Origin: Hornefia butyriciproducens
GTDB lineage: Bacteria > Bacillota > Clostridia > Peptostreptococcales > Anaerovoracaceae
Direction: 5' to 3'
Assembly: GCF_009695915.1 (NCBI RefSeq)
Contig: NZ_VUMZ01000001.1
Span: forward strand, 62,001 to 126,000
DNA: 64,000 nucleotides
The position numbers and the translations under genes are program-made. Position 1 is the first letter of the stretch, and the number at the start of each line of letters is the position of its first letter. The notes below the pieces were generated by a model, which saw nothing but the letters and a program-made list of their open reading frames with translations, did no database searches and was not told where the DNA came from. Shown piece by piece: positions 40,064 to 47,536 of this stretch.

Positions 40064-42688
40064 TCAGTTTACAGTGTTCATGACATCACGGATCGCCTGA
40101 TCGATGAGTCTTATTTCCTCAACAAACTCCCTCGATGATGTCCGTGTCGCGCCATGTCCCAATATGATCATCTGCTCCAGGCCGTCCGAAGTGACGACCC
40201 GCACGTCATTTTCCTTCGCAATCTCATGCGTCACCCTCTCGATGTACATATCCGCGGTTTCCGCTTCCTTTGTATAAATCACGTCGATGTTCCGCACCCG
40301 CTCCCGGGAACCGGTTCCTCCCCTGACCCGGTAGGCGTCAAAGACCACGATCACCTGGGCCTGTGTGAAACCCTGATAATTGCAGAGAATCTCGATCAGA
40401 CGGTCGCGCGATGCGCCGAAATCTGTTTTCGCCAGCTCCGCAAGTTCCGGCCAGGCGTGAATCAGATTGTAGCCGTCTACCAGAACAAACCGTCTCCGGT
40501 TTCCGGATGCCTTTACTTTTCTTACCTCTTTCTGCACCGGTTCAAACCCGGTCCGCTCCGGTCTTTTCCGGCGAGTCGCCCCCGGTGCGGTCAGGGGATT
40601 CTGTTTCACCGGACCATATGTCCGTTCAAAAATCGCCATCAGTTCCCGGTCGTCGGCCGCCCTCCGGCTGTATTCCCGCGCCATGACTCTCAGCTGCTCC
40701 GCCGCTGTACCCTGCGCATCCTGTCCTGCCGCTTTCTGTGCCAGAACAGGCGGAAGGTGCATATGCGCCGGTGCGTCCCTCCAGCTTACGATTTCACTGC
40801 CTCCATGGAAGCAGAACACGGAATCCGCCGTATTTTCCACATCCCGCTCCGGACAGTACCCCGCGGCTTCGATGATCTCTTTTTCATTATGACAGCGTTC
40901 GTACCCGGACAAAATACAGTTCAGCCGTCCTCTGCCTCCGGTGTAGTTCTGAAGTTCTCGGGAATATTCACTCATTTCAGAGACGGGTACCTTCCCCCGG
41001 AGCACCGTCATTTCCCCGGCGCGCTCCGGCTCCTGAAAACTTCCATGCATCCTCTTCACATCCGCCATGGCTCTCCCTGTATTTTCCGCGGGGACCTCCA
41101 GCCTGTACTCAAACCAGGGTTCCAGCAGACAGCAGTCCGCCTGCATCAGTCCCTGACGTACCGCCCGGTATGTGGCCTCCCGAAAATCTCCGCCCTCGGT
41201 GTGCTTCTGGTGACTTTTCCCCGCCGCAAGGGTAATCTTCAGATCCGTCACCGGTGCGCCGATCAGAACCCCGCGATGCTGCCGTTCCCGCAGATGAGTC
41301 AGAATCAGCCGCTGCCAGTTCCGATCCAGCTCATCCTCCGGACAGTCCGTGAGGAACGTCATGCCGCTCCCCCGCTCTCCGGGCTCCAGCAGCAGATGAA
41401 CTTCCGCGTAGTGGTGCAGAGGTTCAAAATGTCCGACTCCCTCCACCGTCTCCGCCTCCGGCATCATGGTTTCTTTATAGACAATTTTTCCGGAGTCGAA
41501 CTCCACGCGATAGCCGAACCGCTCCTCTGCAAGATGCGTCAGAACCTCCAGTTGCACCTGTCCCATCATCCGTATCGCAACCGCTCCCGCAGCCTCGTCC
41601 CAGCTGACGTCCAGCTTCGGATCCTCCTCCGCAAGCTGCCGGAAATCCTGCAGTCCGCGGTGCGCATCAACGCCGTCCGGAAACCTCACATGACAGGACA
41701 GAAACGGTTCCAGAATTTCCTCTCCGGCGTCCTCCTCCGCCCCCAGACCCATGCCCGCTTTCGTCAGGGTCAGACCGGTCAGTCCACAGATCATACCTGC
41801 CTCTGCCTGCTCCACCGTCCTGTATTTCATACCGGAATAGAGACGGATCTGATGGACTTTTCCGCCGTCCACCGTGTCCCTGACCGCCAGCCGACCGCCT
41901 GTGATCCGCACAAAGGTAATCCGCTCTCCGTTTTCATCTCTGGCAACCTTGAAGACCCTGGCGCCGAATTTTTCTCCCGCAGAGCGCGCCGGGGCGAATC
42001 TGACCAACCCGTCCAGCAGCGCATCGATCCCCTCACATTTCAGGGCAGAACCGAAATAGCAGGGATAAATCTCCCTTCTGGAAACAGCCGACGCAATTGC
42101 TTCATCCGACAGCGTCCCCTCTGTGAGCATCGCCTCGGTCAGCGCTTCGCTGTTCAGCGTCAGCGCATCCTCCAGCGCCTCCCGGCTCTGCATCCGGAAG
42201 TCCACGCAGCCGACGCCCAGCCGGGTCCGCAGTTCCCCGAGGATCTCCTCCTTCCGGTATATCGCAAGATCCATTTTGTTTACAAAGATAAATACCGGGA
42301 TCCTGTATCTCCGCAGCAGTTTCCACAGCGTCTCGGTGTGCGGCTGCACTCCCTCATTGGCGCTTATCACCAGAATCCCGCAGTCCACCGCAGACAGAGC
42401 CCGCTCCGTTTCCGCCGCGAAATCCACATGACCCGGCGTATCCAGCAGTGTGATGTCCGTCCCGTTCCGGGAAAGCCGCGCCTGCTTGGAAAAAATCGTA
42501 ATCCCTCTGCTTCGCTCCAGCGGTTCACTGTCCAGAAAGGAATCTCCGTGATCCACTCTTCCCGGCTTCCGGAGTTCCCCCGCCTTGTAAAGAAGCGCCT
42601 CCGACAGGGTAGTCTTACCGGCGTCCACATGGGCCAGCAGTCCCGCGCATATCCGTTTCACCGGCTCCGCATTCTTCGGTTCGTCCAC
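40064..42688 (-). CDS. Ribosome-protection-type translational GTPase fused to a YacP/Rae1-like NYN nuclease
   Basis: 874 residues from the GTG at complement 42686-42688, eight bases after AGGGGG; GTG 42697 has no room for a ribosome site. Residues 1-~660 are an EF-G/TetM-type factor: AHVDAGKTT (19-27), SRGITIF, DTPGHVDF, NKMD, then domains II-V. LMAIFERTYGPVK ends this part. After a basic linker, residues ~733-874 form a NYN/PIN-like domain: VLVDGYNLIHAWP, VVFDAYRV, AETADMYIERV and RVVTSDGLEQ, with acidic residues of a nuclease site. Its nearest named relative is YacP/Rae1, a ribosome A-site mRNA endonuclease of B. subtilis. Tetracycline resistance is possible but not the best reading. Confidence 0.88.
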   Translation of the reverse strand: MDEPKNAEPVKRICAGLLAHVDAGKTTLSEALLYKAGELRKPGRVDHGDSFLDSEPLERSRGITIFSKQARLSRNGTDITLLDTPGHVDFAAETERALSAVDCGILVISANEGVQPHTETLWKLLRRYRIPVFIFVNKMDLAIYRKEEILGELRTRLGVGCVDFRMQSREALEDALTLNSEALTEAMLTEGTLSDEAIASAVSRREIYPCYFGSALKCEGIDALLDGLVRFAPARSAGEKFGARVFKVARDENGERITFVRITGGRLAVRDTVDGGKVHQIRLYSGMKYRTVEQAEAGMICGLTGLTLTKAGMGLGAEEDAGEEILEPFLSCHVRFPDGVDAHRGLQDFRQLAEEDPKLDVSWDEAAGAVAIRMMGQVQLEVLTHLAEERFGYRVEFDSGKIVYKETMMPEAETVEGVGHFEPLHHYAEVHLLLEPGERGSGMTFLTDCPEDELDRNWQRLILTHLRERQHRGVLIGAPVTDLKITLAAGKSHQKHTEGGDFREATYRAVRQGLMQADCCLLEPWFEYRLEVPAENTGRAMADVKRMHGSFQEPERAGEMTVLRGKVPVSEMSEYSRELQNYTGGRGRLNCILSGYERCHNEKEIIEAAGYCPERDVENTADSVFCFHGGSEIVSWRDAPAHMHLPPVLAQKAAGQDAQGTAAEQLRVMAREYSRRAADDRELMAIFERTYGPVKQNPLTAPGATRRKRPERTGFEPVQKEVRKVKASGNRRRFVLVDGYNLIHAWPELAELAKTDFGASRDRLIEILCNYQGFTQAQVIVVFDAYRVRGGTGSRERVRNIDVIYTKEAETADMYIERVTHEIAKENDVRVVTSDGLEQMIILGHGATRTSSREFVEEIRLIDQAIRDVMNTVN

Positions 42689-42700
42689 AGAAACCACCCC

Positions 42701-43762
42701 CTAGATTATGGTTCCGCCGCCGACAACCACGTCGCCGTCATAGAGCACCACCGCCTGTCCGGGGGTAATCGCCCGCTGCGGCTCGTCAAACATGAGATGA
42801 ACCCGGTCCTTCCCCACAGGCGTCACGACTGCCGGCTGTTCCTTCTGATTATATCGGATCCGCGCTTTTACATGAAGCTCCGCCGGCGGCTCTTCGTATG
42901 CGATCCAGTTGAAGTCCTCTGCCTCCAGTTCCCGCCGGAACAGGTCTTCATTTTTTCCGAGAACCACTTTGTTTTCCCTCACGTTCTTCTCCAGCACATA
43001 CATCGGCGCCGGCAACGCCAGCCCAAGCCCCTTTCTCTGGCCGATGGTATAACTGATGATTCCTTTGTGGCTGCCCAGAACATTCCCCTGCACGTCCACA
43101 AAATCTCCGGGAGGATATTCCTTTCCCGTAAAGCGCCGGATCGCCGCGCTGTAGTCGCCGTCCGGAACAAAACATATATCCTGACTGTCATGCTTCTTCG
43201 CATTGATAAAGCCCTGCCTCTCCGCGATTTCGCGGGTCTGCGTCTTATGAAGCCCGCCCAGGGGAAACTGCGTATGAGCCAGCTGATCCTGCGTCATGGT
43301 GTACAAGACATAGCTCTGATCCTTGCTTTCATCAACAGCCTTTTTCAGTATCCAGCGAGTTCCCCGTCGCTCAATCTGTGCGTAATGCCCCGTCACGATC
43401 ACGTCACAGTCCAGGAGTTTCGCCCGCTCATACAGACGGTCGAATTTCAGGAATCGGTTGCAGTCGATGCACGGATTGGGCGTTCCTCCCTCTTCATAAC
43501 AGTGAATGAACCGGTCGATGACCTGCTTTCGGAAATCCGCGCGGAAGTTAAACACATAATGACGAATTCCTACATTATTACAGACATAACGGGCGTCCTC
43601 GGCGTCGTCCAGAGAACAGCAGGTCCGATCACAGGAAATCCCCGCCTCTTCATTATCAAAAAGGCGCATCGTAGCGCCAATGCATTCATATCCTTTGTTC
43701 TTCATCAGCCAGGCGGCTACACTGGAATCCACTCCGCCGCTCATCGCGATCAATGCTTTCAT
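42701..43762 (-). CDS. mnmA: tRNA-specific 2-thiouridylase MnmA
   Basis: 353 residues. Thiolates U34 of Lys, Glu and Gln tRNAs. PP-loop SGGVDSS (8-14), the catalytic cysteines in NPCIDCNRF and DICFVPDGD, GHYAQIERRG, and the SYTIGQRKGLGLA C-terminal block. Full length. First gene of the operon leading to trxB; 12 bases before the GTPase start codon chosen here. Two extra cysteine clusters, CDRTCCSLDDAEDA, are common in Firmicute MnmA. Confidence 0.96.
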   Translation of the reverse strand: MKALIAMSGGVDSSVAAWLMKNKGYECIGATMRLFDNEEAGISCDRTCCSLDDAEDARYVCNNVGIRHYVFNFRADFRKQVIDRFIHCYEEGGTPNPCIDCNRFLKFDRLYERAKLLDCDVIVTGHYAQIERRGTRWILKKAVDESKDQSYVLYTMTQDQLAHTQFPLGGLHKTQTREIAERQGFINAKKHDSQDICFVPDGDYSAAIRRFTGKEYPPGDFVDVQGNVLGSHKGIISYTIGQRKGLGLALPAPMYVLEKNVRENKVVLGKNEDLFRRELEAEDFNWIAYEEPPAELHVKARIRYNQKEQPAVVTPVGKDRVHLMFDEPQRAITPGQAVVLYDGDVVVGGGTII

Positions 43763-43841
43763 ACCATACTCCTGCTCTTAATATTCCGGTCCGGAAGACG
43801 CTCCGCGGAACATGCGGCCGTCTCTGTCGAACATGCCATAA

Positions 43842-43871
43842 ATTATACCCTTGCCTGCGCCGGGCTGTCAA
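43842..43871 (-). promoter_or_regulatory. Promoter of the mnmA operon
   Basis: Minus strand TTGACA (43871-43866), 18-base spacer, TATAAT (43847-43842); both hexamers perfect. Confidence 0.82.
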
Positions 43872-43972
43872 CCTCGGCGGGAAATTGACGGAGCCGGTTT
43901 TATCCCGAAACCGCGGTCTTTATCCGACCTGCAGAGACCTCAAAAAATATCTGTGGTTTTTTCATTTTCCTG
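43872..43972. other. Spacer between divergent mnmA and cysK promoters
   Basis: Holds no gene. It contains an ACCGCGGTCTTTATCCGACC segment that resembles the end of a T-box antiterminator, but no AGGGTGG box precedes it and it lies upstream of the cysK promoter. Confidence 0.5.
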
Positions 43973-45360: not shown

Positions 45361-45441
45361 CTACTGTTTCCTGTATCCCGTCAGAACGGTAAGAGAGAAG
45401 CAGATAATCGTCGCCATCGCGAAAAATTTATGCTTTTTCAT
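45361..45441 (-). CDS. Possible 26-residue hydrophobic small protein after the P-type ATPase
   Basis: ATG at complement 45439-45441, with GGAGG six bases upstream inside the ATPase gene, overlapping its end by 14 bases. The product begins MKKHKFFAMATIICFSL and ends TGYRKQ: a lysine-rich start, one membrane-length hydrophobic stretch and a basic tail. The good ribosome site and coupling to the ATPase stop favour translation; no family recognised. Confidence 0.45.
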   Translation of the reverse strand: MKKHKFFAMATIICFSLTVLTGYRKQ

Positions 45442-47536
45442 CTTCATCCTCCTTCAGCAGATTGCTCATGCTCCGGATTCCGGTCACGAGGGTCGAACCG
45501 TTATGCAGCAGCGCGGAGGTCGCCGGAGACAATATTCCCAGCACGCCGAATGCGATAAGGCTCGCGTTGAATCCGATTATGAACCGATAGTTCTCATTGA
45601 TGCGTTTCATCAGGGCCCGGCTGATTTTCCGCAGGGTCACAAGCTGCCACAGGCTGTCGGAAGAAATTGTTATGTCCGCGATTTCTCTTGCGATAGCCGC
45701 CCCGTCGCTGACGGCGATTCCCGCGTCCGCTTCCGAAAGCGCCGGCGTGTCGTTGACGCCGTCTCCGATCATGATGACCCTTCGCCCTTTTTCATGCTCC
45801 CTCTGAATGAATTCTGCCTTGTCCCGCGGCAGCACCTCCGCATGATATTCATCCAGATCCAGTTTTCTCGCAATTGCGGATGCCGTATGCTCATTGTCAC
45901 CAGTCATCATACAGACTTTGTTCAGTCCGAGCTTGTGAAACGCATCCACCACCTCTGCCGCTTCCCCGCGCAGGGGGTCAAAGATACATATCGCGGCCTT
46001 CAGACGCCCATCGATGGCCATGAACAGATGTGAATACTCTGTGGGAAGGCGGCGGAATTTCTCTGTTTTGTTTTCCGGAATCACGCAGCCTTCATCTTCA
46101 AAGACAAAATGATAGCTGCCGATGACTGCTTTTTCATGGCCCTCCAGCCTGCTGGAAATCCCGTGCGCCACTACATACTCTACCTTAGAGTGCATCTCGT
46201 CGTGACGTATTCCCCTTTCTCCGGCACATCTGACGATGGCGTTGGCAATCGAATGCGGATAATGCTCCTCCAGACAGGCCGCGATCCGCAGATCCTCCGT
46301 CGCATCCGTACCGTCAAAGGTCACGACATCGACAACCGAAGGAGTCGCGTGTGTCAGCGTTCCGGTTTTGTCGAAGACGATCGTCTTCGCCTCCGCCACA
46401 GCTTCCAGAAATTTTCCACCTTTTACGGAAATATCATGCTCCCCTGCCTCTCGTATTGCCGAAAGCACAGAAAGCGGCATGGACAATTTCAGTGCACAGG
46501 AGAAATCCACCATCAGAAAGGAAACCGCTTTGTCGATGTTTCTCGTCAGAAGCCAGGTCAGCGCCGCTCCGCCGAGGGAATACGGCACTAGGCGATCCGC
46601 CAGATGGAACGCCCTCTCCTCAGTGCCGGACTTCAACTTCTCAGACTCTTCAATCATCCTGACGATCTGATCATATCGTCCGCTGCCCGTCGCTCTGGTG
46701 ACTTCAATAACACAGCCGCCTTCCTCCACTATGGTGCCGGCATAGACATATCCGCCGGGTCTGCGGATCACCGGAACCGACTCACCCGTCATGGACGCCT
46801 GGTTGACAGAGGCTTCTCCCTCAACAACCCTTCCGTCCAGCGGAATCACGTTTGATGTCCGCACAACGATTCTGTCACCGGGCCGAATTACCGACACGTC
46901 AGTCAGCACGTCTCCTTCGTCAGTTCGTTTCCATACACGGTCAGCCTTCAGAGACATGGCGCCGGCAAGATCGTTCACAGATTTTCTGTGAGTCCAGTCC
47001 TCCAGAAGGTCTCCGGTCTGCAGCAGAAACATCACAGAAGACGCTGTGGAGAAGTCGCCCCGGAGCATGGAAGCCGCAATCGCCGCAGCGTCCAGCACCG
47101 AAACCTCCAGCCTCCCCCGCAACAGGGATTTCAGCCCCATACCGAGAAAGCGGACGCTCTTCCCGACCGTCCATACGATCTGCAGAGACTTTGGAAAGAA
47201 CAGACTCCGGAATACCCTCCCCAGAATCAGCGCCGTCATCTTCTCCTGATATCTGCGGTTCATCGCCCGGACAGAATGCTCCGGAGCGAGGGCAGCAATG
47301 CTCTCGTCAACAAAGGAAAATCTGTCCAGCGCTTTCAGCAACGCCGGCCGACCTGCGCCTTTGTTCACAAAGAACACAATCGCATCACCCGTGCGCTCAT
47401 GGACGCGGGCGCTCTTCACGAAGCTCAGACTGTTCAAATAAGCCTCTAGGATATCCGCCTCCCTGAGGGTCAGGTTCAGACGCGGAACGCGCAGACGCAT
47501 CCGCTGTCTCGATTCGTGAAGTATCAGATACTGCAT
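45428..47536 (-). CDS. P1-type metal-transporting ATPase with atypical membrane motif
   Basis: 702 residues. P-type ATPase of the heavy-metal class: a degenerate N-terminal HMA-like region (1-75, no CxxC), TGES (250-253), phosphorylation DKTGT (389-393), EEHYPHSIANAI with the His-Pro pair, MTGDN and GDGVNDTPAL. Where copper and zinc pumps have CPC in the sixth helix, this one reads FSCALKLSMP (345-354): the first cysteine and the proline are replaced. Metal is therefore uncertain; Mn, Zn or Fe are candidates. Start overlaps the upstream gene as TAATG. Confidence 0.88.
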   Translation of the reverse strand: MQYLILHESRQRMRLRVPRLNLTLREADILEAYLNSLSFVKSARVHERTGDAIVFFVNKGAGRPALLKALDRFSFVDESIAALAPEHSVRAMNRRYQEKMTALILGRVFRSLFFPKSLQIVWTVGKSVRFLGMGLKSLLRGRLEVSVLDAAAIAASMLRGDFSTASSVMFLLQTGDLLEDWTHRKSVNDLAGAMSLKADRVWKRTDEGDVLTDVSVIRPGDRIVVRTSNVIPLDGRVVEGEASVNQASMTGESVPVIRRPGGYVYAGTIVEEGGCVIEVTRATGSGRYDQIVRMIEESEKLKSGTEERAFHLADRLVPYSLGGAALTWLLTRNIDKAVSFLMVDFSCALKLSMPLSVLSAIREAGEHDISVKGGKFLEAVAEAKTIVFDKTGTLTHATPSVVDVVTFDGTDATEDLRIAACLEEHYPHSIANAIVRCAGERGIRHDEMHSKVEYVVAHGISSRLEGHEKAVIGSYHFVFEDEGCVIPENKTEKFRRLPTEYSHLFMAIDGRLKAAICIFDPLRGEAAEVVDAFHKLGLNKVCMMTGDNEHTASAIARKLDLDEYHAEVLPRDKAEFIQREHEKGRRVIMIGDGVNDTPALSEADAGIAVSDGAAIAREIADITISSDSLWQLVTLRKISRALMKRINENYRFIIGFNASLIAFGVLGILSPATSALLHNGSTLVTGIRSMSNLLKEDEDEKA

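Follow-up and report, generated by a model that had tools for sequence, protein, structure and literature searches.

A ribosome-type GTPase fused to a Rae1/YacP-like NYN domain seems to replace free-standing YacP in many Clostridia

Introduction

Fusions of a Tet-like translational GTPase to a YacP-like NYN ribonuclease domain were described in Clostridiales by a 2015 survey of translational GTPases (Atkinson, PMC4342817; this and the other papers cited are drawn on in excerpt), according to which the Tet proteins of ten species gained this domain, with a possible new resistance mechanism as the suggested outcome. The gene treated here, on the reverse strand of a 64,000-nucleotide stretch of the Hornefia butyriciproducens genome (the window; contig NZ_VUMZ01000001.1, positions 62,001 to 126,000), encodes a fusion of the same design, and the two very likely represent the same proteins, a match made on the description of the architecture, not on sequences. 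Whereas the excerpted survey counts ten species and offers a resistance reading, the present analysis finds the fusion in 130 of the 393 genomes sampled from the class, in a clade separate from the Tet proteins and tied to the loss of free YacP. Each half has a well-described relative. TetM, TetO and TetW, which are established resistance proteins, share the EF-G-like domains I–V and form the sister clade, but have another domain IV tip and no NYN domain. Rae1/YacP of Bacillus subtilis, a free-standing protein of about 180 residues, shares the NYN family by sequence, the acidic residues and the core motifs, whereas the NYN of the fusion is tethered to a GTPase and relaxed at two positions that free YacP holds nearly fixed. 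In Bacillus, YacP is credited with translation-dependent mRNA destabilisation (PMC10100781).

The architecture is already known; what is newly argued here is its identity and role. The new elements are the placement outside the Tet proteins, the commonness of the fusion, the exclusion between fused and free YacP, and the fit to a single fusion event. The protein seems to be a chromosomal ribosome-associated endonuclease that replaces free-standing Rae1/YacP in many Clostridia. We propose, with confidence evenly balanced between holding and failing, that it is a GTPase-tethered stand-in for Rae1 that would cut mRNA on stalled ribosomes. The initial annotation of the window knew of no functional study of such a fusion, and none was found among the open-licence papers searched.

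Domain architecture and the NYN active site

The open frame spans 40064..42697 on the reverse strand, 877 codons counted from the first GTG, and residue numbers are those of this 877-residue frame. The initial annotation placed the start at the GTG at 42688. Because GGGGGTGG (42701-42694), which starts on the final base of the mnmA stop codon, precedes that codon by 5 bases and overlaps the GTG at 42697, the start at 42688 is the better placed of the two and probably correct, giving a product of 874 residues. The protein consists of EF-G-like domains I–V, a linker and a C-terminal NYN_YacP domain (Pfam), with the following features:

40064..42688, reverse strand: whole fusion gene, 874 codons plus stop, start judged from GGGGGTGG
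41990..42646, reverse strand: GTPase domain I, residues 18-236 (Pfam GTP_EFTU, 173 bits)
41753..41968, reverse strand: EF-G-like domain II, residues 244-315 (Pfam EF-G_D2, 33.4 bits, cut-off 27)
41498..41710, reverse strand: EF-G-like domain III, residues 330-400 (Pfam EFG_III, 25.7 bits, slightly below the cut-off of 27)
41138..41491, reverse strand: EF-G-like domain IV, residues 403-520 (Pfam EFG_IV, 65.9 bits)
41180..41212, reverse strand: domain IV tip, residues 496-506, H-x-KHTEGGDFR, a signature particular to the family, where loop III of a Tet protein would lie (alignment A1)
40880..41128, reverse strand: EF-G-like domain V, residues 524-606 (Pfam EFG_C, 72 bits)
40757..40879, reverse strand: C-terminal extension SVFCxHGxxxxVxW, residues 607-647, in fused and unfused family rows
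40487..40756, reverse strand: variable linker, residues 648-737 (alignment A1)
40613..40651, reverse strand: linker motif D-x-EL-x-x-IFE-x-TYG, residues 683-695, nine positions kept in 75-79 of 79 rows of A1
40085..40486, reverse strand: YacP/Rae1-type NYN domain, residues 738-871 (Pfam NYN_YacP, 164 bits, cut-off 24.6)

The union of an EF-G/TetM-like GTPase with a Rae1-type NYN, proposed in the initial annotation from the letters of the window, is borne out by the Pfam series from GTP_EFTU to EFG_C followed by NYN_YacP; the two families it had singled out for a search, NYN_YacP and EFG_IV, score 164 and 65.9 bits. The fusion is no assembly artefact, because 129 other genomes of the class have NYN_YacP in a long frame and 78 of 80 loci align over their full length. 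These 78 and the window make up alignment A1 (79 full-length proteins), from which L064, with an in-frame stop, and L081, by our choice, were excluded. The 80 loci are the best 80 of 593 matches, and their record titles name Clostridia wherever a group below the phylum is given, the others being uncultured-bacterium or Bacillota records. In A1 the G motifs AHVDAGKT, RGITI, DTPGH, NKMD and GSALK hardly vary, DTPGH included, and most of their positions are identical in 79/79 rows. Mean column identity is highest in domain IV (0.83) and lowest in the linker (0.47), and the NYN, at 0.73, is conserved about as strongly as the GTPase domains (0.67-0.83), in an alignment that leans to close relatives and somewhat overstates conservation. 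Between W639 and D741 the chain measures 83-117 residues in A1. The SVFC-type extension is missing from all six Tet-type rows aligned, and unfused members of the family stop short of the linker motif.

The NYN half closely follows free YacP. It matches two solved YacP chains, 5mq8 and 5mq9 (E = 5e-28), which we take to be B. subtilis Rae1, and contains all four motifs picked out in the initial annotation (VLVDGYN, VVFDAY, ETADMY and VTSDG). Counted by hand along the alignment, D741, N744, D787, D816 and D838 correspond to D7, N10, D53, D81 and D104 of the solved YacP. D741, N744, D787, D816 and E820 are kept in 149/149 distinct fused and 30/30 distinct free domains, and D838 in 148/149 and 30/30, respectively. 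The acidic site, which the initial annotation had allowed might prove to be missing, is intact on sequence comparison in all 149 distinct fused domains examined, and an inert C-terminal tail is rejected. Both halves of the protein look active. Matches to TALE proteins in the structure-chain search were chance matches to repeats.

Fused and free YacP in Clostridia

NYN_YacP occurs in 250 of the 393 class genomes. The fused form alone is present in 129 (the window's included), the free form alone in 112 and both in one; 143 have neither and 8 are unclear. The length of the open frame served to distinguish the two forms (618-1190 residues for fused, 160-226 for free), and the eight unassigned genomes comprise seven with frames of 295-501 residues and one with a 27-residue end piece; G209, despite an NYN of the fused type, is tallied as free. 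Independence would predict 38 genomes with both forms where one was seen, a figure that ignores kinship. Fused and free YacP are nearly completely mutually exclusive, even though one family (f23) holds both fused and free members and another (f28) a single free member among fused ones. Among 99 genomes of the window's taxonomic family, 58 have the NYN and 57 the GTPase; the two sets differ by one genome, G424, where a short open frame (372 residues) is present, and the halves are jointly present or jointly absent in 98/99. One genome (G432) has a fused copy of 882 residues and a second, unfused copy of 649 residues with 40% identity, on contigs C25 and C16.

In the window's taxonomic family yacP is missing from its customary operon. 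Where free yacP was inspected, its neighbours are rlmB and sigH; the fusion gene lies elsewhere. The order rlmB-yacP-sigH was read in three order-mates (L017, L020 and L025; the RlmB and SigH names were confirmed for L020, and the name mrnC was given by eye, with no NCBIfam match). In the window's taxonomic family sigH was located in 21 of 26 genomes, and at all 21 loci no yacP match lies between rlmB and sigH, which adjoin each other. The window's own genome shares this arrangement (its RlmB passes the cut-off, its SigH just reaches one); its single NYN_YacP match is the fused copy, elsewhere.

Across the phylum, a search of 398 genomes, with three candidates scored per genome, found the GTPase at E <= 1e-100 in 37, of which 30 are fused and seven unfused (651-674 residues). 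A Rosetta-stone comparison of the seven gave a mixed outcome, with a separate YacP in 4/7; no free YacP was found in 20 fused genomes checked alongside them. The unfused relatives, these seven and a protein from a Ligilactobacillus salivarius plasmid (L150), resemble the fusion in belonging to the same GTPase subfamily, with 38-47% identity, and in having the HTxGG tip and the SVFC-type extension, but lack the NYN. In the GTPase tree the fused state requires two changes, taken to be a single gain and a single loss, and the loss is the L. salivarius protein, nested in the fused clade. The tree fits a single fusion event, after which this protein probably lost its NYN secondarily. The gene of the latter (L150:5998-7932, plus strand) adjoins rpsN, and its tip is altered to NVHTVGGDFR.

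The GTPase half lies beside the Tet proteins

None of the sequence tests applied makes the fusion a Tet protein. It scores 413 bits against the NCBIfam model tet_protect, whose curated cut-off of 775 is passed by TetM (879) and TetW (852), and its relatives L150, L151 and L152 also fall below that cut-off (379, 389 and 397 bits). Nor is it EF-G, with 281 bits against TIGR00484 where 659 are needed. Over the GTPase it shares 29% identity with TetM and 31% with TetW, 38-47% with eight unfused members and 51-61% with nine fused ones. In a tree of 68 rows (50 fused and 8 unfused family rows, the window's gene entered twice), built with long-branch warnings, the fusion family forms one clade (support 100/99), sister to six Tet-type proteins (100/99), of which three are merely predicted resistance genes; EF-G, TypA and LepA fall outside both clades.

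The domain IV tip also separates the groups. H496 and each residue from K498 to R506 are present in 79/79 rows of A1, and the loop III sequence SPVST/APSST, found in 6/6 Tet-type rows, occurs in 0/12 fusion-family rows. H496 shares its column with the tip histidine of EF-G (SYHDVDS), where TetM has a tyrosine, and K498 lines up with Pro509 of TetM. The "ribosome-protection class" of the initial annotation is not upheld by these results, which place the family in a clade of its own beside the Tet proteins, with 413 bits against 775 and no Tet loop III; its further suggestion of a distinct activity in place of plain tetracycline resistance is supported. A plain Tet protection protein, as a description of the family, is rejected on the tet_protect score, the tree position and loop III.

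Proposed mechanism

We infer recruitment, GTP gating and cleavage from these features. When a ribosome stalls or slows, the GTP-bound GTPase would enter its A site, which the KHTEGGDFR tip would probe. The A site is also where Tet-type factors act, and they appear to depart on GTP hydrolysis (PMC8161019, in excerpt). Hydrolysis in the fusion would then pull domain IV out and let the tethered NYN dock in the emptied site, a sequential use proposed because domain IV and the NYN could hardly occupy the site together. The 83-117 residues between W639 and D741 would allow such successive docking, and the linker motif may be a docking element. Once docked, the NYN would cut the codon in the A site, which is what Rae1 is proposed to do. 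In this way the fusion would couple ribosome sampling to mRNA cleavage, doing what Rae1 does alone in Bacillus. That the protein is a GTP-gated ribosome nuclease of exactly this kind, in which a GTPase with a tip of its own samples A sites and hydrolysis yields the site to a tethered, codon-cutting nuclease, is offered tentatively and is doubtful in our judgement.

Weighing the alternatives

Several observations suggest that the fusion stands in for Rae1 on stalled ribosomes: the unchanged active site, the intact G motifs, the mutual exclusion, the missing operonic yacP in the window's taxonomic family and the joint retention of the halves. The single-fusion fit of the GTPase tree and the separate YacP in four of the seven genomes with unfused GTPase add to these. 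Other observations weigh against it. The mutual exclusion can stem from descent instead of replacement. Four of the genomes with rlmB directly beside sigH in the window's taxonomic family (G412, G413, G414 and G448) have neither yacP nor the fusion, and the loss of yacP therefore need not follow from the fusion. The only genome with both (G284) still keeps yacP in its place between rlmB and sigH, with the fusion at another locus, an arrangement that would also be expected of an intermediate. Because 41/99 genomes of the window's taxonomic family have neither half, and 98/99 are concordant, the protein is dispensable, with both halves retained wherever it is present. Of the genomes with unfused GTPase, three have no YacP whatever. 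A tree of the NYN itself, with few columns and built from 75 of 148 fused and 31 free-labelled distinct domains, requires three label changes, not one, among them a contig-edge fragment (L131) and the free NYN of fused type in G209 (L027). Finally, R852 and E857, kept in 30/30 and 29/30 free YacP domains, are kept in only 108/149 and 93/149 fusions, and substrate or binding mode may therefore differ; the lean of A1 to close relatives counts on the same side. As for the G209 domain (L027:1486-2055, minus strand), it stands free and possibly reflects a fission; no match to rlmB, sigH or the GTPase was found within 3.5 kb around it.

The relaxation at R852 and E857 would suit the most probable of the alternatives, itself unlikely, in which the nuclease works at the ribosome on a different target, for example the tRNA of a stalled ribosome, rRNA or an assembly intermediate, and the GTPase serves as a delivery or timing device. 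According to a proposal quoted in PMC4342817 (as excerpted), NYN domains of this class act in the maturation of rRNA and tRNA. However, the domain has the acidic site and core signature of YacP, the replacement pattern suggests the same job, and the activity ascribed to YacP in Bacillus is the translation-dependent destabilisation of mRNA (PMC10100781).

A looser arrangement, in which the GTPase has a ribosome role of its own and the NYN is a Rae1 independent of GTP and of the GTPase, strikes us as quite improbable. The long, variable linker, the three genomes that keep an unfused GTPase with no YacP and the free NYN of fused type in G209 would all suit two such loosely coupled functions, but the halves are retained or lost jointly in 98/99 family genomes, and the linker carries a conserved motif not seen in unfused members.

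Fainter again are the prospects of a protein that protects against tetracycline or another A-site drug with the aid of an added ribonuclease, as suggested in the 2015 survey. The EF-G-like domains, the sister relationship to the Tet proteins and the automatic annotation of L150 and L151 as TetM/TetW/TetO/TetS are in keeping with it, and the reported activity of TetM with S508A/P509A/V510A (PMC4750697, in excerpt) implies that a differing tip is compatible with drug release. Set against these points are the tet_protect shortfall, the absence of an SPVST-type loop III from all 12 family rows, and a lysine, K498, where TetM has Pro509, the residue described as overlapping bound tetracycline (PMC7456112 and PMC8161019, as excerpted). 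Moreover, the window's genome already owns a TetM/W-class gene, outside the window (G000:C24:148419-150335, plus strand; 1285 bits, cut-off 1100), and of 72,556 plasmid records just 2 contain the fusion at >=80% query coverage. Large replicons listed as plasmids carry the fusion in Agathobacter rectalis (L151, 252 kb) and Monoglobus pectinilyticus (L152, 518 kb). The labels of L150 and L151 were assigned although both lie below the curated Tet cut-offs.

A defence system is set aside: PADLOC gave one weak match (LeoA, 17.5 bits), and inspection by eye of the 18 commonest flank clusters brought up no defence gene. Of the "quality-control or defence activity" raised in the initial annotation, the distinctness from resistance is supported, and no sign of the defence part was seen. 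A phage-borne gene is likewise rejected: two unverified faecal "Bacteriophage sp." scaffolds (L155 and L156; MT835563 and MT835514) carry the fusion among frames that, judged by eye, resemble bacterial chromosome.

Genomic surroundings

The fusion gene begins 12 bases past the stop of mnmA and is followed by a gene for an M18 aminopeptidase; given this short gap and the gene order, the three probably share one transcript. No recurring operon was found, the top flank cluster (an ABC transporter by eye) being present at 10 of 92 loci compared. The flank comparison took the longest of overlapping frames, which at the window is an antisense frame and not the fusion gene, and its result is therefore weak evidence on the window's own neighbours. 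This antisense frame, of 1244 residues (40154-43888, plus strand), spans the fusion gene and mnmA and is probably a codon-bias shadow. Further along, a 702-residue frame with the motif DKTGTLT (45428-47536, minus strand) resembles, by eye, a metal-transporting P-type ATPase.

Implications

Beyond the Bacillus and E. coli models, little is known of how bacteria clear mRNA from stalled ribosomes. With a ribosome GTPase joined to an mRNA-type endonuclease in one chain, point mutants could separate GTP use, docking and cutting, and the distribution of YacP as fused, free or absent amounts to a natural experiment on the swapping of such a factor. At least two public records (L150 and L151) stand under a Tet name, and counts of resistance genes in gut samples may be inflated as a result. 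If the proposal of a GTP-gated ribosome nuclease is true, the fusion would be a one-polypeptide bacterial no-go-decay machine, standard in many Clostridia of the gut type, and its gene would often go under a mistaken tetracycline-resistance name.

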